Assembly (NCBI GenBank): GCA_013824385.1
Contig: PNNU01000017.1
Location: forward strand, 1-17,790
DNA from: Anaerolinea sp.
Lineage (GTDB): Bacteria > Chloroflexota > Anaerolineae > Anaerolineales > Anaerolineaceae
Length of the DNA: 17,790 nt
Direction: 5' to 3'
Shown here: piece by piece, positions 3,376 through 17,790 of the stretch
Position numbering within the stretch: the first letter of the stretch is position 1
Layout: the number at the start of each line of letters is the position of its first letter
The notes under the pieces: generated by a model
The model's database searches: none
What the model was told of the DNA's origin: nothing
Seen by the model: the letters and a program-made list of their open reading frames with translations, nothing else
Translations under genes and position numbers: made by a program

Positions 3376-3431
3376 CTTGAAATATCAGGCAAGACATAGA
3401 AATTCACATTATTCTGGTCAATCTATAGCCG

Positions 3432-6609: not shown

Positions 6610-9600
6610 TTGAAAAAAGTGATTAGGTCTTTCTTTTTGTTAAGTGTTTTAATAGGCTCTATTATTCTTGGACAAGTTCAAACAGCCAATGCTATCGCGT
6701 ATGAAGCGCAAATAAATATGGAGTTTTCTGAAACGGGTATTTTGGTTGGCGACACGACCATTCTTACCATAAGCATTTTTAATCAAAACTATTTTATTCT
6801 TGATAACGTATCTTTTACAAACAGTTTGGCCGGCCGACAGCCTGGATTAAAAATCGGCCCTGGCGGTTTACTCAGTAATTCATGTTCTGGCATCGTGATT
6901 GCCACTCCTGGAACTACAACCATTTCTTTGAGTGGTGGAACAGTGCCGGCCAACACTGGCGTGCAGGGGAGTTGTCAAATACAGGTTGAAATAATTACAA
7001 CAACTTCAGGGAATCTTCTTAATACTATTCCGGCGTACGGTGTTGAACCCTCATATGGTGGTGTGGGCTTGTATGCCACAGCGCGCGGCGGCCTTGATAT
7101 TATTACCAATTCAACAAGAGGTGCTACGACTGTCACCCTGTTGGTTCTTCCCGTCACTTCTCCAACCATGAATAAATCCTTTTCACCCAGCACCGTTTGG
7201 GCTGGTGAATCCACCCAATTGGAAATTAATCTTTTTAATGAAGACACTACAAATACATTAACCGGCGTAACCTATACTGATAATTTGCCTTCTCCGTTTG
7301 TTGTTTCTGCACCATTAACCACTTCACTTTTAAATTGCGGTATCGGTGCCACATTAACCGCCTCAGTGGGGTCTTCCTCTGTTACTCTTAATAATGGCAC
7401 GATCAGCCCACGGACAACCTGTCGAGTGCGTGTGAGAGTGGTTTCATCCACACAAGGTGCATATACAAATACAATTCCCAGTGGTTCTGTGCAAACAAAT
7501 CAGTTGGTTACCAACAATACAAATGTCACTGCCCCTGTCAATGTTCAATCTGTGAAGATTACCAAAACGTTCAATCCCACTTCTTTTGCCCAGGGTGATA
7601 CAAGCACTTTAACCATTAGATTACAAAATCCATCCAGTACGGTTTATTCAAATGTCAATCTGAATGATGTATTGCCCGGACCGCTTGTGGTTTCAGGAAC
7701 ACCTGTTGTATCGCAGTGCAACGGAACAATTAGCGTTTCAGGCGATAAAAAGACAATCAGTTTAACCAACGGATCCATTCCAGCAGGGAATACCATAACC
7801 CCAGGCTCTTGCAATATTGTGGTTCAAGTGACCAGTCCAACCTATGGGGGACCCTATACTAACAATATTCCGGCTGGAACCGCGCTTGGTCCCGTTACAA
7901 CCATGTTTGATGCCACTGCCCAGGCGACTGTTACTCAGAGGACAATTAAAGTTGCAAAGGTATTTGGCGCCGATTTTGTTGAAAATGCAACGACCAGTCT
8001 AACAATTACCTTAAGCAACGAAACGACATCGGCTTTTACCGGTGTGACATTTACAGATACGATGCCAGCCGGCATTACCATAGTGGGAACCCCCACCGCT
8101 AATGGTAATTGCGGTACTGGTGCAGTGGTAACAAGCTCATCCAATTCGATTACATTAACAAACGGAGTGGTGCCTGCCGGTTCAGTCGCCTCTCCGGGGA
8201 CTTGTGTCGTCAGTGCCACAGTAACTTCCTCAACAAGCGGCAGCGGCGGTACAACATATACGAACCGGATTGAAGCTGGTGATGTCTGTTCAGTTCAGGG
8301 AATCTGCAACGCTGCTGCCGCATCAGATGCAGTGATCGTTTATCCTTTGAATGGCGGTGCGACTGTCTCAAAAACCTTTGATGGGTCGGCAACTAAAACG
8401 ATCCTTGCAGGTAGTTCCTCTCTTCTTACAATAACGATCAGGGCTCCAAGAGATACCTCTCTCAGTCAGATCCATCTCCGTGATAACTTTCCTGACGATA
8501 TGGTTCTAGTTTCAGCCCCCAGTACTACTTGCGGTGGGACCTTGAGCGGGGGCATTGGTTCCCAATTTGTTGAATTGACAGGTGGATCAATTGCCACGGC
8601 CAATTCAACATGCACGATTACAGCCAATGTTACTTCTTATACTCCTGGTTCGCACATCAATACAATCCTGGCAAATTCCTTATCCACTTATGAAGGCCGC
8701 ACGGATTCTACAGCTCGTTCGGCAACGTTAGCGGTGACCAGTTTTCAAATGTCGAAGGATTTCGCGCCGAACGCGATCGCTCAAGGTGGACTTTCTCAAT
8801 TAACCATATACTTAAGTAATTCCAATTTACAACCTGTGACAGGAGTGACGCTTTCTGATAACCTGGCTTCGATGGATCAGGGGACTTATGCAGTCAGAGT
8901 TTATGCGCCTTCCTCCAACCCGGAATATGCCCCTACCACCGATTGTACCGGGGGAAATCTCTCTAGCATAACAGATGGTGGCTCCACTATTTCAATCAGC
9001 GGCGCCACAATCCCGGCCAGCGATGGCGTGGTGGATGGATTATGCCGGATTAATGTCTATGTTATAGGTCAAAGTACCTCGGTGACACCTGTCACTCGTA
9101 CGAACACCATTGCTACCGCTAATGTCAGCGGAACAGTCCAAGGTCAACTGGTTCATCCGATTGCAGCAGCATCCGATACATTGACCATTCAACCCTTGGA
9201 TATTAATGTGGATATGGGTTTCAACCCGGTTGGTGTCTACAACGGTTCATATTCAGTATTAACTATTGATCTCATTAATTTAAACGCCGTTCCACTATCC
9301 GGAATTAAATTTACCGATGTCATGCCCGTCGGCATGATTTTAGCCAACCCTGTTAATTTTAATGTTGGAACCTGTGGTGGTACACTAACTGGTACGGCTG
9401 GTAGTAACAGTTTCTCATTTAGCGGAGGCAGTTTACCTGCATCCAGCACCTGTCATTTAAAACTTAATGTCACCATGACGGTCAGTAATAACCTATTAAA
9501 TGAAATCCCTGCCCAGGCTGTGACTTCCTTTGAGGGTGCGAAGAATTCGGCAGGAACGACGGAGACACTTTCAAATGCAGTGGGCGCCTTCATCTCCAAA

Positions 9601-12600
9601 TCATTTTCACCAAACCCCGTGTCAATGGGTAATTATTCTCTTCTGACGATAACCATTACAAATGTAAATTCTGAAATTCCCTTGACATCGGTAGGGTTAG
9701 TAGATACCTTCCCGACGGGTATGACCGTGGCAGACACATTGTTGCCCGCCCCTGTACCTGTCAATAATTGTGGTGGCAGTCTGACGGCTGTCGTTGGTGC
9801 CAATTCAATTGAGTTGAGCGGCGGTTCACTTGGAGCGAGTTCATCCTGTACGTTAGTGATACCGGTGGTTGGTGCTGCTGCAGGAAGTTATACAAATACC
9901 ATACCTGCAGGCAGGTTGACTACTTTTCAAGGTGTAAGCAATACAGAAGACGCAAGTGATACCCTGGTGGTCAGCTCCTTCAGCCTGGGCAACCGTGTCT
10001 GGGATGATAATGGCAGCGGAGGGGGTACTGCCAAAGACGGCCTCCAAAATGGTACTGAACCTGGAATAAACGGGGTGACCGTCAATTTATATGCCGATAT
10101 GGATGATAATGGCACACCGGATGGAAGTGTCATTGCAACACAAACGACTGACTCAAATGGTTATTATCGCTTTGATGCCCTTGCGTCAGGTACCTATATT
10201 GTTGAAGTTGGCCTGCCCACTGGATATAGTGTCACTGCCATTAATGGAGGCGACCCGGATAGCAGTTCTGTGGATATGGATAATAACGGTACGAATGCTT
10301 CTATCCCCGGTTTTGTTAGAAGCTCTCCGGTGACTCTCGAACCCACAGCCATCGAACCCACCAATGACAATGATCCAGTTACAAATCCGGCATTAACTGG
10401 AGAAGGCCCCAACAATCAATCCAATCGCACAGTTGATTTTGGCCTTTACCTGCCATTTTCACTTGGCAACCGGGTATGGAATGATAACGGCGCCGGCAGT
10501 GGAACTGCTGGTGATGGGCTGCAGAATGGTACTGAACCTGGAATCAGCGGGGTAACAGTCAGGTTATATCGCGATACCGATAAAAATAACACGCCTGATG
10601 GTAGTGCTATTGATGTAATGGTCACGGATGTGGATGGTTATTATCGTTTTGATAACCTTTATTCAGATTCTTACATTGTTGAGGTTGTGACGCCTTCAGG
10701 TTATGGGGTTACATCAGGGGCAGTAAGCGATCCCAATTCTGATTTGGATTTGGATAATAATGGTGCCAATGTTATCGGGGTTCTTGTGCGCAGCCAGTAT
10801 GTAACGTTAGGACTTGGCGCGAATGAACCCACATTAGAAAGCAATCCTGCCTTAAACCCTGAAACGGGTGAAGCGTCGGATAATCAATCGAATCGAACTC
10901 TGGATTTTGGCTTTATAGGGGCATACAGTGTGGGTAATCGCATCTGGGATGATAACGGAGCTGGAACTGGCGGTTCCGCGAATGATGGCATCAAGAACGG
11001 CACAGAACCAGGAATGAGCGGGGTGCTCGTCAGGCTTTATTCCAACTTAAATCCGGCAGTGGTCATCGCCTCTACTACCAGTGACGCCAGCGGTTATTAC
11101 CGTTTTGACTCACTCGCTCCAGGTGAATACATTGTTGAAGCAAAAGTCGCTACCGGGTATGCAAACAGTACTGGTAAGTTCGCAGATACGATTACAGACC
11201 TCCAGAACAAAGGTTCAGACACGTTAACCAATCCAGGTTATGTACGTTCGATCGTTGTTACTCTGGGTGAAAATATGCCTATTAATGACAATGATCCAGT
11301 CACCAATCCTGTAACTGGTGAAGCGGCTAATGCTTCTTCCAACCGTACAATGGATTTTGGTTTTTACCACCAACCCTATACACTTGGAAACCTGGTGTGG
11401 CTGGATAATGGGGCTGGAGGTGGCGGAAATAATAATGGTTTGCACGATGGAACTGAACCAGGTATTGCCAACCTGATTGTAAAATTATATAGAGCCAGTG
11501 ATACTCTTCACGCAATATCAACCACAGAGACTGACGCTAATGGAAACTACCAATTTACGTTATTGCCGTCAGATGATTATTTGGTGAAAGTAACTATTCC
11601 GACGGGATACATCGTCAGCTCTGTCAATAATTCCACCGACCCTACAGATGTGATTGATGATGATAATAACGGTACGGATCTATCGGGAACATTATTAAGC
11701 AGTAAAACAATTACTCTTACGCTTGATAATAATTCGATCGATTTTGGTCTGACGCAATTACCTTCATTGGGAGACTATGTCTGGAATGATCTTGATCGTG
11801 ATGGTGTTCAGGATGCCGGGGAACCAGGTGTTACCGGGGTAACTGTAAAACTGTATCAAGGGGTTCTTGGTTCGGGTACACAAGTAGGTTCAAATGGTAC
11901 AACTGGAGCAGGCGGTTATTATCTGTTTTCAAACCTGACCCCGGCAAATGATTATTACCTCGAATTCACTTTGCCAACGGGATATAGTTTTAGTCCGACA
12001 GGTGCTGGAACATCCACAACTGATAATGATGCCACTCTGGTGAGCGGCTCTACTGGCAGAACTGGATTGATCACTTTAGTTTCAAACACAAATGACCTCA
12101 GTTGGGATGCCGGTATCTATCAACCGCCCGCATCCATTGGGAATACTGTCTGGAACGATAATGGGGCAAGCGGCGGTACTGCCAGAAATGGCATCATGGA
12201 TGGCGGCGAGACAGGTGTCGCAGGGGTTACGGTTGAACTTTTCCGCCCTGGATATGGTTTGGATGGTATTGCGGCTACTTCTGACGATAACCTTCCTGTA
12301 AAAACAACTCTGACAAATGGTAGTGGTAACTATTTATTTGACGAATTGGGACCTGGCAACTATTTTGCGACTTTTACGCTGCCGTCAGGTTATGCCTTTG
12401 CACCGAAAAGTGGTGTCAGTAATGTTGATTTGGATAGTGACGCCGATATTGTTACCGGCCAAACGGCACTGACAACAATTGCGGTCGGTGAAAATGACCT
12501 AACCTGGGACGCCGGTTTATACCAATTGGCTTCGATAGGCGATTTTGTCTGGAATGATCTGAATCACAATGGTATACAAGATGGCGGTTCCGAACTAGGC

Positions 12601-15600
12601 ATGTCAGGTGTATTGGTCAATCTTTATGACAGCACAAATACCATCATTGCAACCACGACCACCACTGGCACAGGCGGCTATTTGTTTGGAGAATTGCAGC
12701 CGGGTGATTATTATGTCGGTTTTATTCCGCCTGTTGGCTATGCTTTTACTCAGAAAAATGCCTTGGGGAGTACTGTAAATAATGATAGTGATGCGGATCT
12801 TTCTACTGGAAAAACTGTTTTAACTACACTCGATATAGGTGAAAATGATCTGAGCTGGGATACGGGTCTATATTTTACTGCGTCAATTGGCGATAAAGTT
12901 TGGAATGATAATGGTTTGGGAACGGGCGGCATTAAACGCAACGGAGTTCAAGACGGTACAGAACCAGGAATTGCCGGGGTAACGGTTACCCTCTATGATT
13001 CTTCGGATAATCTGGTAAGCTCAACTTCAACATCCAGCAGTGGCATATACGGATTTACCGGCTTGGTTCCTGGTGATTATTATGTTACGTTTGAATTACC
13101 TGCCGGCTATCAATTCAGTCCTGCTAACTTCGGGAGTGATGACACTATTGATAGTGATGTCTCGAGTGTGACTTTAAGTATTGGAAAAACAATAGTTACA
13201 ACCCTCGATCCTGGAGAAAATGATCCAACCTGGGATGCCGGTATGTATCTTCAGCCTGCATCATTGGGCGATTTTGTGTGGTTTGATGAAAATGGTAATG
13301 GTGTACAAGATGTTGGTGAAGCGGGTGTGAATGGTATAGAAGTCAAACTCTATAATGCATCTGCAACTCTTCTTGATCAAACAACTACTGCAAATATCGG
13401 CGGAATAGACGGAAAATATCTGTTTAGTGGATTATCACCAGATTATTACTCTCTTGTATTTTCAGCACCGGGCTATTTGTTCAGTTTAACAAACCAGGGT
13501 GGCAATGCCAACTTGGATAGCGATGCGATCATTCCAGGCGGGCAAACCAATTTAACTTTGTTGGATCCAGGTGAAAACGATTTAAGCTGGGATGCTGGCT
13601 TATATAATAAAGCCTCACTGGGCAACAAGGTTTGGATGGATACAAATGCAGACGGCATTCAGGATGCTGGTGAGTCAGGTATTAACGGCGTAAAAGTTGA
13701 CCTTTATCGTGTGGGTGCAGGTTTTGTAGCCACAGCCAATACGTCCGGAGGCGGTTTATACTCCTTTACTGATCTTGTTCCTGGTGATTACTATTTGATA
13801 TTTACTCTACCTTCTTCAGGTTATTTTTTCAGCCCGCAATCTGTAGGGGCAGATACTGAAGTGGATAGCGACGCAGATCAAACGACCGGCCAGACACCCA
13901 CTATCACCCTGTCATCAAGTGAAAATGATTTGAGTTGGGATGCTGGAATGTATCAGAAAACCTCTATTGGTAATCTGATCTGGCTTGATGTAAATGGGAA
14001 CGGTTTACAGGATGGCGGAAGTGAAACCGGAATAAATGGTGTCACTGTTGACCTATATACAGGCGCGAATGAGGGTACTTATGTTCGCTCTGTGGATACC
14101 GCGGGTGGTGGATTGTATTCATTCACTGACCTTGTTCCTGGCGAATATCACGTTGTCATTCATCCTCCTGTAAGTTACTTGATCAGTCCATTGAACATGG
14201 GGGCAGATGATGCCGTTGACAGCGATGCTGATCGAAGCAGCGGCAGAATGGCGAATACCATTCTAACCACAAATGAAAACGACATGACCTGGGATGCGGG
14301 TTTATACCAACCGGCTTCATTAGGAGATTATGTTTGGGTTGACACGAATGGAAATGGCATTCAAGACAGCGGAGAACCCGATCTCGCAAATGTATTGGTT
14401 GAACTTTACCGTCCAGGGTTTGGCGCTGATGGAGTTGCAGGAACATCTGACGATAACGCCATTGTTTCTTCCACATCAACCGATTCAGATGGAGCTTATC
14501 TGTTCTACAACCTGATCCCTGGTGATTATTACCTGATTTTCACAAAACCATCCGGTTACTTGATCAGTCCTGCTGATTTTGGCGCTGATGGAGTTGATAG
14601 TGATGCTGCAAATGACGGAAAAACTGTAACCACAACATTAACTTCTGGTGAAACAGATTACACCTGGGATGCAGGGATGTACTTGCCCGCTTCACTCGGC
14701 AATCTTGCCTGGATTGACAGCAATGGTGACGGAATTCAAGACTCTAGTGAATCTGGCGCTAATGGTGTCACAGTGAATCTCTACCGACCGGGTTTCGGTC
14801 CAGATGGCATTCCTGGAACTACAGGTGATAACGATTCGGCCGTAACTTCCACTGTAACCGCGGCTGTATTGGGAGTAAATGGAATCTATGGGTTTACAGG
14901 ATTAATTCCTGGAACCTATTTCATAGATTTTATTCCTCCGGTAGGTTTAAGCTTTGCACCGGATAATCAAGGTGCAGACGATGAGTTGGATAGTGATCCC
15001 AGCCCGGCAACAGGCTCAACAATAACCACCACACTTGCCTCTGGTGAAGAGCAGCTTTATTGGGATGCAGGTTTTAATACCGCCCTGGCTTCATTGGGCA
15101 ACTTGGTTTGGCTTGATAATGACGGCAACGGAATCCAAAATGGAGGAGAGCCGGGCATTAATGGTGTTTCAGTAAAATTGTTTACTTCAACCGGTACAAC
15201 GCCAATATTGACGAGAACCACTTCAAATGGCGGTTATTACTCATTCACCGATCTACAACCAGGAGCATATATTCTCGAATTTGATCCTCCTGTTGGTTAC
15301 AGCTTTTCGACTGCAAACCTGGGGGGCAACGATGCAACAGATTCTGATGCCAACCCTGCAACGCATCGCACCAGCATTATTGACCTTGGCGTGGGTGAAC
15401 ATGATATTACCTGGGACGCAGGATTGAGCAATACGAAGGCTTCGTTTGGTAACTTCGTATGGCTGGATATTAATGCAAATAATTTGCAGGATACGGGTGA
15501 ATTGGGCATTGACGGCGTGACGGTGGATTTGTACACCTCCACTGACGTGAAGTTACTAACAACCAATACATCTGGGGGTGGATATTACTCGTTTACCGGG

Positions 15601-17277
15601 TTGACACCTGGAGATTATTATGCGATCTTCACTTTACCAAATGCCGGTTATTATTTTAGCCAGGCAAATGTTACTGCTAATGATGCGATCGATAGCGATG
15701 GAAACCAGGTAACCGGTCAAACCCCAATCACAACCTTGAGTGCAGGTGAAGAAGATCTAACGGTGGATCAAGGATTGATCTTGTTTGCAAAGATAGGATT
15801 GGCTAAGCGGCAAATTGGTGAACCAGTCTCAGTAAGTATCGGCACCTGGGATGTAACCTTTGAATTCTTGGTAAAAAATTATGGAACTTCAGATCTCTTT
15901 AACGTTCAAGTTGAAGATAATCTCAGAGATACTTTTCCCGCAGACTCTTCGTTTACGATCCAATCAATTTCAAGTTCTGATTTTACGGTCAACAATTCCT
16001 ATAATGGTGATACCAATGTTCAATTACTTGAGGGAAGTGACACATTAGGTGTTGAAAATCCTGGAACCATCACCGTCGTTGTACGAGTGATCCCGGATCG
16101 GGCGAATTTCTTGAATTCCGCAACCGCGACGGGAGAAGACGAACATCAGAATGTTGCCACTGATGAATCTGATGACGGTTCAGATCCGGATGGTGAAGTA
16201 GTAAAAGATGATGATCCATCAGATGACAATGATAAAACTCCAGTCTATTTTGGCGCAAAAATATTTGATCCTCCGTTTGGTATTAAAACTGTTAATGATT
16301 CAGGCCAACCGGAATTAAAATGGACCATGGTATGGATCAACAATACAAATATTGTTGGTGTTCATGCCGTAGTACATGATCCAATCCCAGAAATGACGAC
16401 CTTTACACCAAATCTAGTAGACAGCGGATATGGCATCCCGGATACTTCACCGGATGGTTCAACTTCATTTGGCGTTTCATGCACCTCTTCTTCAGAAACA
16501 GTGACTGAACTTTGCTATTATGAGGGACCAACACCTGCATATCCGCGGGGACAGATTATCTGGGAAGGCATCCTTGGGCCAGATCTTGGAGCATTGGAAC
16601 CCGTTGATGCAAAAAACGCGATCTCAATCACTTTCACTGTGACGGTAAATGGCAGCACCGTGGTCAAGAATAATGCCTTTATAGACAGTGATCTCAATGG
16701 TGATGGAGACGCCGAGGATGTTGGTGAACGATCTGTTGCTCTTGCTGATTTTATCTGGGATGTAACCCCCGAGGATCTGCCAGACACAGGTTTCGCTCCA
16801 AACCAGGTTACTCTTCTGCCAAAACAAACCACACTCTATAATGAATTGGGTGATTTCTGGCTTGAAATACCGAAATTGGATATTAAAATGCCCATTGTCG
16901 GAGTTCCAATGGTTGATAATTCTTGGGATGTTTCATGGCTGGGGAACATGGCAGGCTGGTTGGATGAAACGGCTTATCCAACAACAGCGGGCAACTCAGT
17001 AATCACAGGACACGTTTATCTGCCCAATGGCAAACCTGGTCCATTTGTTAATCTAGTAAAAATGGGATGGAACGACAAAATTATCATTCATGTCGCTGAA
17101 AAACAGTATATCTATCGAGTTCGGCAGGTGAAACGCGTATATCCGGATGATCTTTCACCTTTGAATAATGAATCTTCGAGTTGGATTACTCTTGTAACCT
17201 GTCAAAGTTATGATGAGAAAAGTGACAATTATCTCTACCGGCAGGTAGTGAAAGCGGTTCTGATTGAGATAAAATAG
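6610..17277 (+). CDS. giant SdrD-B repeat surface protein with LPDTG motif fused to a C-terminal sortase
   Basis: A 3555-residue secreted protein, uninterrupted. Order: signal peptide (1-28, cleavage after ANA); eight beta-sandwich repeats of about 110-155 residues (30-1124), each with a Cys pair; fifteen SdrD-B-like repeats (1125-3056); two DUF11-like domains (about 3057-3180 and 3216-3385) joined by an Asp-rich strip; LPDTG at 3390-3394; sortase domain (about 3410-3555). The sortase has the full catalytic set His3468 (TGHVY), Cys3531 (TLVTC) and Arg3544 (YLYRQ). No transmembrane helix is visible after the signal peptide, and the LPDTG is not followed by the usual hydrophobic stretch and basic tail. 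The protein is probably a long calcium-stabilised adhesin or stalk that carries its own anchoring or polymerising enzyme. A TTG start with GGAG seven bases upstream is used. The sortase class is uncertain, and the ligand is unknown. Confidence 0.92.
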   Translation: MKKVIRSFFLLSVLIGSIILGQVQTANAIAYEAQINMEFSETGILVGDTTILTISIFNQNYFILDNVSFTNSLAGRQPGLKIGPGGLLSNSCSGIVIATPGTTTISLSGGTVPANTGVQGSCQIQVEIITTTSGNLLNTIPAYGVEPSYGGVGLYATARGGLDIITNSTRGATTVTLLVLPVTSPTMNKSFSPSTVWAGESTQLEINLFNEDTTNTLTGVTYTDNLPSPFVVSAPLTTSLLNCGIGATLTASVGSSSVTLNNGTISPRTTCRVRVRVVSSTQGAYTNTIPSGSVQTNQLVTNNTNVTAPVNVQSVKITKTFNPTSFAQGDTSTLTIRLQNPSSTVYSNVNLNDVLPGPLVVSGTPVVSQCNGTISVSGDKKTISLTNGSIPAGNTITPGSCNIVVQVTSPTYGGPYTNNIPAGTALGPVTTMFDATAQATVTQRTIKVAKVFGADFVENATTSLTITLSNETTSAFTGVTFTDTMPAGITIVGTPTANGNCGTGAVVTSSSNSITLTNGVVPAGSVASPGTCVVSATVTSSTSGSGGTTYTNRIEAGDVCSVQGICNAAAASDAVIVYPLNGGATVSKTFDGSATKTILAGSSSLLTITIRAPRDTSLSQIHLRDNFPDDMVLVSAPSTTCGGTLSGGIGSQFVELTGGSIATANSTCTITANVTSYTPGSHINTILANSLSTYEGRTDSTARSATLAVTSFQMSKDFAPNAIAQGGLSQLTIYLSNSNLQPVTGVTLSDNLASMDQGTYAVRVYAPSSNPEYAPTTDCTGGNLSSITDGGSTISISGATIPASDGVVDGLCRINVYVIGQSTSVTPVTRTNTIATANVSGTVQGQLVHPIAAASDTLTIQPLDINVDMGFNPVGVYNGSYSVLTIDLINLNAVPLSGIKFTDVMPVGMILANPVNFNVGTCGGTLTGTAGSNSFSFSGGSLPASSTCHLKLNVTMTVSNNLLNEIPAQAVTSFEGAKNSAGTTETLSNAVGAFISKSFSPNPVSMGNYSLLTITITNVNSEIPLTSVGLVDTFPTGMTVADTLLPAPVPVNNCGGSLTAVVGANSIELSGGSLGASSSCTLVIPVVGAAAGSYTNTIPAGRLTTFQGVSNTEDASDTLVVSSFSLGNRVWDDNGSGGGTAKDGLQNGTEPGINGVTVNLYADMDDNGTPDGSVIATQTTDSNGYYRFDALASGTYIVEVGLPTGYSVTAINGGDPDSSSVDMDNNGTNASIPGFVRSSPVTLEPTAIEPTNDNDPVTNPALTGEGPNNQSNRTVDFGLYLPFSLGNRVWNDNGAGSGTAGDGLQNGTEPGISGVTVRLYRDTDKNNTPDGSAIDVMVTDVDGYYRFDNLYSDSYIVEVVTPSGYGVTSGAVSDPNSDLDLDNNGANVIGVLVRSQYVTLGLGANEPTLESNPALNPETGEASDNQSNRTLDFGFIGAYSVGNRIWDDNGAGTGGSANDGIKNGTEPGMSGVLVRLYSNLNPAVVIASTTSDASGYYRFDSLAPGEYIVEAKVATGYANSTGKFADTITDLQNKGSDTLTNPGYVRSIVVTLGENMPINDNDPVTNPVTGEAANASSNRTMDFGFYHQPYTLGNLVWLDNGAGGGGNNNGLHDGTEPGIANLIVKLYRASDTLHAISTTETDANGNYQFTLLPSDDYLVKVTIPTGYIVSSVNNSTDPTDVIDDDNNGTDLSGTLLSSKTITLTLDNNSIDFGLTQLPSLGDYVWNDLDRDGVQDAGEPGVTGVTVKLYQGVLGSGTQVGSNGTTGAGGYYLFSNLTPANDYYLEFTLPTGYSFSPTGAGTSTTDNDATLVSGSTGRTGLITLVSNTNDLSWDAGIYQPPASIGNTVWNDNGASGGTARNGIMDGGETGVAGVTVELFRPGYGLDGIAATSDDNLPVKTTLTNGSGNYLFDELGPGNYFATFTLPSGYAFAPKSGVSNVDLDSDADIVTGQTALTTIAVGENDLTWDAGLYQLASIGDFVWNDLNHNGIQDGGSELGMSGVLVNLYDSTNTIIATTTTTGTGGYLFGELQPGDYYVGFIPPVGYAFTQKNALGSTVNNDSDADLSTGKTVLTTLDIGENDLSWDTGLYFTASIGDKVWNDNGLGTGGIKRNGVQDGTEPGIAGVTVTLYDSSDNLVSSTSTSSSGIYGFTGLVPGDYYVTFELPAGYQFSPANFGSDDTIDSDVSSVTLSIGKTIVTTLDPGENDPTWDAGMYLQPASLGDFVWFDENGNGVQDVGEAGVNGIEVKLYNASATLLDQTTTANIGGIDGKYLFSGLSPDYYSLVFSAPGYLFSLTNQGGNANLDSDAIIPGGQTNLTLLDPGENDLSWDAGLYNKASLGNKVWMDTNADGIQDAGESGINGVKVDLYRVGAGFVATANTSGGGLYSFTDLVPGDYYLIFTLPSSGYFFSPQSVGADTEVDSDADQTTGQTPTITLSSSENDLSWDAGMYQKTSIGNLIWLDVNGNGLQDGGSETGINGVTVDLYTGANEGTYVRSVDTAGGGLYSFTDLVPGEYHVVIHPPVSYLISPLNMGADDAVDSDADRSSGRMANTILTTNENDMTWDAGLYQPASLGDYVWVDTNGNGIQDSGEPDLANVLVELYRPGFGADGVAGTSDDNAIVSSTSTDSDGAYLFYNLIPGDYYLIFTKPSGYLISPADFGADGVDSDAANDGKTVTTTLTSGETDYTWDAGMYLPASLGNLAWIDSNGDGIQDSSESGANGVTVNLYRPGFGPDGIPGTTGDNDSAVTSTVTAAVLGVNGIYGFTGLIPGTYFIDFIPPVGLSFAPDNQGADDELDSDPSPATGSTITTTLASGEEQLYWDAGFNTALASLGNLVWLDNDGNGIQNGGEPGINGVSVKLFTSTGTTPILTRTTSNGGYYSFTDLQPGAYILEFDPPVGYSFSTANLGGNDATDSDANPATHRTSIIDLGVGEHDITWDAGLSNTKASFGNFVWLDINANNLQDTGELGIDGVTVDLYTSTDVKLLTTNTSGGGYYSFTGLTPGDYYAIFTLPNAGYYFSQANVTANDAIDSDGNQVTGQTPITTLSAGEEDLTVDQGLILFAKIGLAKRQIGEPVSVSIGTWDVTFEFLVKNYGTSDLFNVQVEDNLRDTFPADSSFTIQSISSSDFTVNNSYNGDTNVQLLEGSDTLGVENPGTITVVVRVIPDRANFLNSATATGEDEHQNVATDESDDGSDPDGEVVKDDDPSDDNDKTPVYFGAKIFDPPFGIKTVNDSGQPELKWTMVWINNTNIVGVHAVVHDPIPEMTTFTPNLVDSGYGIPDTSPDGSTSFGVSCTSSSETVTELCYYEGPTPAYPRGQIIWEGILGPDLGALEPVDAKNAISITFTVTVNGSTVVKNNAFIDSDLNGDGDAEDVGERSVALADFIWDVTPEDLPDTGFAPNQVTLLPKQTTLYNELGDFWLEIPKLDIKMPIVGVPMVDNSWDVSWLGNMAGWLDETAYPTTAGNSVITGHVYLPNGKPGPFVNLVKMGWNDKIIIHVAEKQYIYRVRQVKRVYPDDLSPLNNESSSWITLVTCQSYDEKSDNYLYRQVVKAVLIEIK
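6697..9981 (+). repeat. eight tandem Cys-pair beta-sandwich repeats (DUF11/DUF7933-like)
   Basis: Within the giant protein, repeats begin near residues 30, 187, 317, 448, 586, 714, 867 and 995. Each opens with a K-x-F-x-P-like strand and a GxxSxLTI motif (for example KSFSPSTVWAGES), passes through a TDxLPxG turn, and has a first Cys in a CGGTL-like strand and a second Cys in an SSTC-like strand about 20-40 residues later. The pair is present in all eight and probably forms one disulfide per domain. The copies are diverged, so the array is old. The family name is from memory. Confidence 0.8.
9982..15777 (+). repeat. fifteen tandem SdrD-B-like (Cna-B-type) repeats
   Basis: Repeats begin (SLGNxVW or SIGDxVW) at residues 1125, 1284, 1440, 1591, 1719, 1842, 1975, 2092, 2218, 2336, 2452, 2570, 2695, 2828 and 2945. 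The first three are 151-159 residues long and end in a NQSNRTxDFG segment. The rest are mostly 112-133 residues, and nearly all of them end in a GENDLSWDAGLY-like segment. Nine (5, 7 and 9-15) have an EF-hand-like loop of the form DxNxNGxQDxGE; the others have a Gly-rich variant (DNGAGxGxxxDGLQNGTE). Homologous Staphylococcus SdrD B repeats bind calcium and stiffen the stalk. Confidence 0.88.
16777..16791 (+). other. LPDTG sortase-recognition motif (residues 3390-3394)
   Basis: Codes for Leu-Pro-Asp-Thr-Gly, followed by FAPNQVTLLPKQ. A class A-type sortase would cut between Thr3393 and Gly3394. Unlike a normal cell-wall sorting signal there is no hydrophobic helix and no Arg/Lys tail; a sortase domain follows directly. 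Confidence 0.85.
16837..17274 (+). other. sortase catalytic domain (residues 3410-3555)
   Basis: An eight-stranded sortase-like domain of about 145 residues: LGDFWLEIPKLDIKMPIVGVP opens the barrel, His3468 lies in TGHVYLPNGKPGPF, Cys3531 in TLVTCQSYDE, and Arg3544 in NYLYRQVVKAVLIEIK at the very C-terminus. All three catalytic residues are present. The TLVTC form and the lack of a C-terminal extension resemble class D, E and F sortases more than class A or B, but class cannot be settled by eye. Confidence 0.87.
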
Positions 17278-17294: not shown

Positions 17295-17325
17295 TCCTCC
17301 CGTGTTAGTAGCGGGAGGACTTTTT
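17295..17325. terminator. bidirectional terminator between the giant gene and the EF-hand gene
   Basis: A perfect 8-bp GC-rich stem TCCTCCCG (17295-17302) / CGGGAGGA (17312-17319) is followed by CTTTTTG on the + strand and by ATTTACTTTTATATT on the - strand, so it can serve both convergent genes. Confidence 0.85.
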
Positions 17326-17344
17326 GTAATATCCTTTCGTTGGG

Positions 17345-17790
17345 TTAGGCTTTGATACTGAAGGTGGTTGCGACCAGATTGCTGGATTCGGTCGTTTGAC
17401 CAGTGCTGTCATATTCACTTTGGCTTAATTCGGCATTGGCATTTTCTTCGAGTTGTTTGAGGATGTAGGCTAACTTTTCCTGGATGGAGACTTCGCCATC
17501 TTTATCGGTGTCACGTACATCATAGTTGGTAGTGGAGCTGGATGTACTGCTTGAATAAGAACTCTTTGAAGAAGCGCCTGTGCTTTGAGCGGGTGGCGGA
17601 CCTTTGGGTTTGCCGCCCTGCTGCATTTTCTTCAAGACGGCTTCATTTTCAGACTGGCTGATCTTGCCGTCACCATCAGTGTCGGTTTCTTCAAACATCT
17701 TGGTGAGCTTTTTGTCGGTATCGCCATCTTGCTTCTTGATGTTGGCGAGGAATTCTTCCTTGTCAACGCTCCCATCGCTGTTCGCATCCT
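17345..17790 (-). CDS. EF-hand calcium-binding protein, 5' end beyond the window
   Basis: The reading frame runs on to the right edge of the window, so the N-terminus is missing; about 147 residues are visible. An internal Met at 17698 is not the start, because in-frame EF-hand sequence continues upstream of it. Three canonical calcium loops are seen: DANSDGSVDKEEF (near 17788-17750), DTDGDGKISQSE just after the Met, and DTDKDGEVSIQE further on. A low-complexity Ser/Thr/Pro/Gly linker (GKPKGPPPAQSTGASSKSS) separates the second and third hands. The C-terminal tail is polar. Whether the protein is secreted cannot be judged without the N-terminus. It is convergent with the giant adhesin gene and shares its terminator. 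It is probably a calcium buffer or sensor. Confidence 0.85.
   Translation of the reverse strand, partial: DANSDGSVDKEEFLANIKKQDGDTDKKLTKMFEETDTDGDGKISQSENEAVLKKMQQGGKPKGPPPAQSTGASSKSSYSSSTSSSTTNYDVRDTDKDGEVSIQEKLAYILKQLEENANAELSQSEYDSTGQTTESSNLVATTFSIKA

Follow-up and report, generated by a model that had tools for sequence, protein, structure and literature searches.

The window analyzed here, a 17,790-nucleotide stretch of Anaerolinea sp. taken as a whole (contig PNNU01000017.1, assembly GCA_013824385.1), encodes a giant secreted adhesin that carries both a sortase sorting motif and a sortase domain at its own C terminus. Its open reading frame (6610..17277, + strand) specifies 3555 aa from a TTG start codon, with a GGAG sequence ending 7 bases upstream. 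The predicted signal peptide region (6610..6699) contains hydrophobic residues at approximately 3–23 (Kyte-Doolittle mean 1.89 in 19-residue windows), and ANA near residue 28, judged by eye, is a possible cleavage site. A Pfam scan of the adhesin part (6610..16776) identifies eight DUF7933 stretches, 15 SdrD_B stretches, and three DUF11 stretches; DUF7933 is among the domains linked to intramolecular isopeptide bonds in the available portion of PMC12617251.

The sorting motif LPDTG (residues 3390–3394, 16777..16791) includes Thr3393 and Gly3394, lies 161 residues from the C terminus, and is conserved in the family; the sole other match to LP.T[GASN] in the protein is LPVTS at residue 180. It is followed by FAP (3395–3397, 16792..16800), which is conserved beyond the presumed cut and retained in a clade that lacks LPxT, by a linker of near-constant length in the alignment (3398–3417, 16801..16860), and by the sortase domain (16861..17262). 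This domain belongs to the sortase superfamily by its Pfam match (PF04203 on residues 3418–3551, E = 1.6e-21; score 76.8 bits, cut-off 26.6), and the adhesin also exceeds the cut-off of TIGR01076. The catalytic triad is complete (His3468, Cys3531, and Arg3544). The domain remains below the NCBIfam cut-offs for class C (NF033745, 58.3 vs. 160 bits) and for classes D, E, and F (38.8, 35.9, and 36.1 vs. 165, 160, and 166 bits), as does the adhesin for the MSCRAMM SdrD model (733 vs. 2500 bits). No DP(W/F/Y) motif typical of class C lids occurs between residue 3381 and the first strand, where LPDTGFAP stands in its place. Of the features of LPXTG surface proteins, the adhesin has the LPxTG motif and lacks the hydrophobic helix and basic tail; its 205 C-terminal residues contain no membrane helix (Kyte-Doolittle means over 19 residues reach at most 0.87). 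A first-pass annotation of the window had proposed an LPDTG motif and a complete sortase domain in the same polypeptide, and we recover these features, including the positions of Thr3393, His3468, Cys3531, and Arg3544. The order of motif and sortase likewise holds, but not the suggested spacing of about 16 residues, as the Pfam domain begins 23 residues past the motif Gly.

This module is family-wide in Anaerolineae (Chloroflexota), where it is attached to unrelated secreted domains, in line with the initial suggestion that LPxTGFAP–sortase tails recur in this phylum. We collected long, short, mid-size, and genome-derived sets of relatives, which overlap in part. The last 176 residues retrieved 60 long proteins including the window's own; the last 175 residues retrieved 144 short proteins, many from short contigs, of which 120 are listed; and a mid-size query yielded 420 matches, of which 120, its own included, are listed. 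A scan of genome contigs used patterns within the sortase domain that contain the His and Cys and omit the motif, and 79 of the best 80 of 201 encoding stretches lie on contigs labelled as Chloroflexi or Anaerolineae groups. One 3.8 kb contig labelled Acidithiobacillus ferrivorans (L005) also holds a relative and is probably misbinned, and a partial relative labelled Acetobacterium sp. (P0065, 77% identical) is probably mislabelled or misbinned. Among viral contigs, eight stretches fit a pattern and none encodes a relative. At E ≤ 1e-20, 39/400 Chloroflexota genomes contain a match; 27/400 together contain 53 matches that exceed 200 bits, with a maximum of four in any one genome (hand count), all in frames of at least 396 aa and all starting at model position 4–10, at or just before the motif. 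Fused members also occur in a cultured bacterium, Ornatilinea apprima P3M-1 (L080). Weaker matches in the 400 genomes are mostly stand-alone sortases of 228–340 aa. The C-terminal membrane helix of class C sortases is absent from the window adhesin, and in 119 of the 120 listed mid-size relatives the protein ends 0–5 residues past the matched domain (21 residues in the other).

Partner domains are diverse. Among ten chosen fused proteins, a Pfam scan detected a named partner in six and the sortase alone in four; the partners are subtilase (L020 and P0091), a PD40 propeller (L044), PMP-type repeats (L041), Cna_B (P0059), and a Ser/Thr kinase (L178). The module behaves as a portable C-terminal tag. 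The kinase protein (L178, 1049–3439) has a membrane segment, judged by eye, and a C-terminal LPRTGFAP with sortase, and may possibly be a receptor cut or anchored by its own sortase. In a midpoint-rooted tree, 19 fused representatives with less than 52% mutual identity, the window included, group together with L054 and L185 (90/93, unstarred fork). Two divergent fused proteins from one genome, L161 (3095–5827, IPDTGYS) and L162 (2898–5102, IPQTGFA), score 77–85 bits, like stand-alone sortases, yet retain the motif; they fall outside the main fused group with weak support and long branches, and their fusion may have arisen a second time. Three decayed copies (L130, L186, and the second of the copies at L124), read frame by frame, were excluded. 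Databases label many members "LPXTG-site transpeptidase (sortase) family protein". As far as the literature could be searched, largely without subscription papers, we found no description of a natural sortase–substrate fusion family in searches that also covered Chloroflexota sortases, and the available portions of PMC7203096, PMC3415414, and PMC12617251 give no account of such a family. The sortase domain is thus already recognized, while the fused architecture seems to be unremarked in the searchable literature.

Conservation of the motif is on a par with that of the catalytic triad. P.TGF is present in 58/59 other long relatives (59/60 with the window) and in 116/120 listed mid-size relatives, where the remainder have LP.SGF (2), TP.SGV (1), or LP.TGY (1) and all 120 fit a looser pattern. 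The motif is also present in 91/92 assessable short relatives, a further 28 of the 120 listed being cut before it. Because the arrangement of LPDTG and sortase recurs in nearly every assessable relative, we consider it confirmed as real rather than a product of chance. An alignment of 318 rows (315 distinct members with at least 150 bits, two divergent members, and the window) shows P in 283/284 rows with a letter at that column, T in 277/285 (S in 7, V in 1), G in 289/289, and F in 286/289 (Y in 3), alongside His in 317/318, Cys in 318/318, and Arg in 313/317. Where the motif columns are filled (283 rows), 271 rows have P.TGF, eight have S or V for T, three have TGY, and one has ILDTGF; the remaining 35 comprise 28 rows cut before the motif, two whose motif spans an alignment gap (L067 and P0041), three that lost Arg, and L185 and L186. 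The distance from the motif Gly to Pro3421 is 25–28 residues in 280/283 rows. Among 160 clusters at less than 70% identity, built only from these 283 rows, P is found in 159, T in 155 (S in 5), G in 160, and F in 158 (Y in 2), and x is free at 3.28 bits, so that motif residues rank with the triad. On sequence grounds, a free x amid near-invariant P, T, and G is the signature of an LPxTG substrate. In a separate alignment (A2), the invariance of P and G arises partly by construction, its rows having been picked with a motif pattern.

The triad behaves similarly. His, Cys, and Arg are all present in 120/120 listed mid-size relatives and in 216/217 rows obtained by routes other than the contig scan, the remaining row ending before Arg, and no triad substitution was found among rows with a readable motif. 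One relative with Tyr for His (P0120) is cut before the motif and is uninformative.

In one clade, loss of LPxT coincides with loss of catalytic Arg. With the looser pattern, 132/137 genome-derived members keep the motif, the exceptions being L054, L074, L077, L185, and the decayed copy L186. Members without the motif still score 166–180 bits, and a match to the profile thus does not depend on it. The free loss of LPxTG among homologues that the first-pass annotation had named as evidence against its reading is therefore not what we observe, and three of the five exceptions have also lost catalytic Arg. In these three (L054, L074, and L077, second members in their loci), Arg is replaced by Trp and LPxTG by SGG(F/L)G, while His, Cys, and GFAP are kept; all are long in-frame proteins, open at the locus edge. 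L054 nests within the fused group beside the intact L078 (LIPVTGFAP; support 100/98), and L180, a further relative by sequence, keeps Arg with the motif ILDTGFAP. Since LPxT is lost together with Arg and GFAP is not, we read LPxT as going with catalysis and GFAP as probably having a separate, structural role.

Structural prediction places the motif on the domain. In an AlphaFold model built from a deep alignment the motif is ordered (pLDDT, a per-residue confidence score, ~96; block 11–20 = 96), and reach of the motif to Cys3531 in cis is therefore plausible. Most of the best profile matches among solved structures, and most first Foldseek matches, are class C sortases; the matches are compatible with the path of a class C lid, although aligned ranges give only first and last residues and are not proof. 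An attempted residue register with class C lids put Asp-Pro-aromatic on model residues 10–12 for 2w1j and 4g1j (assuming no gap at the start) and one residue later for 4g1h, and 3rbk does not fit; we claim no register.

Together, these patterns suggest a domain that carries its own substrate, cleaves it once in cis, and hands the adhesin to an acceptor amine, much like engineered STEPL, an account that we hold to be probable by a small measure. The last ~166 residues would constitute this self-sorting module. After export, which hydropathy suggests is by the N-terminal signal peptide, the sortase would fold with the LPDTGFAP segment against its surface, probably in the active-site groove at the position of the class C pseudo-substrate lid. 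Cys3531 would then attack Thr3393 and cut the Thr-Gly bond in cis, with the adhesin now bound through a thioester, and the conserved GFAP end may stay docked, in which case the acyl-enzyme could re-close. Finally, the adhesin would pass to an amine, either on the wall or on a different surface molecule, with release of the spent sortase domain. Every copy of the enzyme would be used a single time, on the chain that bears it, without any need for a helix that retains the protein in the membrane. More tentatively, and as a possibility that falls somewhat short of probable, the module may be a natural single-turnover self-ligating sortase, with LPxTG preloaded in its own active site, a re-closable thioester held by docked GFAP, and one transfer to a wall or surface amine, serving Anaerolineae as a portable C-terminal anchor on adhesins, proteases, and receptor kinases.

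The strongest alternative is that LPxTGFAP is an uncleaved autoinhibitory lid, because a substrate-like segment lying on the groove would be expected in this case as well; the fused sortase would be shut until the lid is displaced and would then act in trans, with the adhesin delivering it to the surface. We regard this as unlikely, although class C sortases offer precedents, since the available portion of PMC3493515 reports that the Pro of the DPX lid motif overlays the Pro of LPAT and that N-terminal truncation increases Vmax by as much as 10-fold, and the ordered N-terminal segment of our predicted model is compatible with a lid path. A lid could do without a consensus LPxTG that can be cleaved, whereas T-G hardly varies across the 160 clusters. 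This near-invariance and the co-loss of LPxT with Arg lead us to favor a substrate over a lid. The 12 genomes searched contain no sortase-less PxTGF[AT]P protein above chance: among 29 matches, 19 are in fused sortases (one a decayed copy) and 10 are elsewhere in short frames of 24–157 aa, compared with 12 for the reversed pattern. Trans substrates with the extended motif thus seem to be lacking there, although there is one candidate whose end follows the looser form LPxTG(F/I/L). The pattern CCNNNNACNGGNTTY alone was too loose to interpret and was discarded.

Alternatively, the motif could be a trans substrate of the cell's stand-alone membrane sortases, with the fused domain accessory or acting elsewhere. 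Stand-alone sortases occur beside fused ones in 12/12 genomes, and a two-helix LPxTG-type protein is present in 26/29 genomes whose fused-family match reaches 150 bits (from lists compared by hand; the association is confounded by kinship). However, the paucity of the extended motif outside fused sortases, the near-invariant triad of the fused domain (His and Cys partly by construction), and the loss of LPxT in the clade that lost Arg, which a trans substrate would not need, all argue against this explanation and leave it distinctly unlikely. The class C sortases that dominate the best profile matches among solved structures raise the prospect of polymerization, in which the acyl-adhesin would pass to an amine of the next adhesin to form a covalent fiber as in class C pili; we consider this improbable. 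Finally, the likeness to LPxTG might merely be that of a structural strand of the sortase fold with no catalytic meaning, as retention of GFAP after loss of LPxT and the order of the segment in the predicted model could indicate. Stand-alone sortases nonetheless manage without the segment (0/39 rows, 28 of them from the 12 genomes, contain TGF or TGY), x varies within invariant P, T, and G as in a substrate, and LPxT disappears with Arg while the domain remains, making such a role highly improbable.

Several observations weigh against self-cleavage. Both His and Cys were part of the scan patterns, so their invariance at the 80 loci from that scan is partly built in, and the protein searches drew words from the whole region, motif included. 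L185 has no motif though its triad is apparently intact (Arg by eye, shifted one residue; a 203-aa frame in which no signal peptide was seen), and P0107, P0041, and L180 have a changed motif with the triad kept. Co-loss of LPxT and Arg is a single event in three near relatives. Two stand-alone sortases among the 39 rows hold LPTTG or VPLTG somewhere (L192 and L188), both from other genomes. A shallow AlphaFold model (23 sequences), since superseded by the deep one, left the motif disordered. Furthermore, the alignments of 3re9 (open lid) and 3rbj (a lid mutant whose motif is disordered) likewise begin at model residue 1–2, as far out as the others, so the motif cannot be positioned over Cys from aligned range by itself. 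According to the available portion of PMC3493515, class C lids are inhibitory, and IPNTG introduced into the lid of a class C sortase with Cys changed to Ala is disordered in the accessible part of PMC3166054. An LPxT-like appearance would also be expected of an uncleaved pseudo-substrate, and the mechanism draws on sequence patterns and a predicted model. As a whole, the earlier interpretation is partly supported.

In STEPL the parts reportedly run in the order target, LPETG, and sortase. The window adhesin resembles STEPL and other engineered LPETG–sortase fusions in holding target, motif, and sortase on one chain, with release of the target (available portions of PMC11561820 and PMC2901362), and differs in that it is natural and belongs to a whole family in which the linker is nearly fixed and FAP is conserved. 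These engineered fusions cleave themselves, the accessible parts of the same reports not stating whether within or between molecules, and in BISOP the sortase comes first in the fusion order (PMC2901362, in part). STEPL and BISOP show that processing of a motif by a sortase is feasible when the two are fused in one construct. Class C (pilus) sortases share the fold, a segment ahead of the first strand that packs on the domain, and the best profile matches; they have a DP(W/F/Y) lid, whereas the window has a consensus LPxTG with FAP in a module without a C-terminal membrane helix that is itself the C-terminal domain of a secreted protein and falls below the class C cut-off. The group B Streptococcus (GBS) SrtC1 mutant with KDPYS changed to IPNTG also puts a sorting motif at the lid position (PMC3166054, available portion), but it is artificial, with Cys changed to Ala and a motif disordered in the crystal, while the window motif is natural and predicted to be ordered. 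LPXTG wall proteins of the Sdr/MSCRAMM type similarly combine SdrD_B repeats, a signal peptide, and LPxTG, but the window adhesin is without their hydrophobic helix and basic tail and its sortase is fused rather than separate.

Sortase anchoring is understood as the work of a membrane enzyme on many separate substrates held by helices. A Chloroflexota lineage appears to have merged substrate and enzyme, with one enzyme per anchored protein, which suggests that each surface protein may attach itself. If true, a membrane-retention signal would be unnecessary, and the display of giant adhesins would be explained in bacteria with penicillin-binding protein (PBP) transpeptidase domains in 12/12 genomes and Omp85 found in 0/12 (genomes of unstated completeness), a combination that fits one membrane and a wall precursor as a possible acceptor. 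Motif surveys limited to the last 50 residues, as described in the available portion of PMC12617251, would miss the module. It is also a possible natural source of compact self-ligating tags, and the proposal could be tested on a single small soluble domain.

Genomes with the fused module also tend to encode the two-helix protein (L226, L227, L228, L232, L235, and L276–L285), a conserved protein with an LPxTG-type end, often LPxTGFADE, followed by a membrane helix and arginines, and with both ends probably cytoplasmic. It was found in 31/400 genomes, a few of the matches being weak, and is a candidate ordinary sortase substrate or surface partner. Among ten such proteins that were read, two of them query rows, the motif is LPxTG (7), MPQTG (1), LPNGG (1), or LPNSG (1). 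TIGR01167, tried as a test for ordinary LPXTG proteins, matched 14/14 control genomes at the E-value used, making its counts uninformative, and pointed to this protein.

Elsewhere in the window, a hairpin (CCTCCCG/CGGGAGG) with a T run, read from the sequence at 17296..17326 and not assigned to a strand, is a probable terminator between two convergent genes. The adhesin converges there with an EF-hand protein (17345–17788, minus strand) that the XopAW model matches weakly (46 bits vs. a cut-off of 120). Upstream, 1126–2799 encodes an AMP-binding enzyme resembling fatty acyl-AMP ligases, at scores under the curated cut-offs shown.

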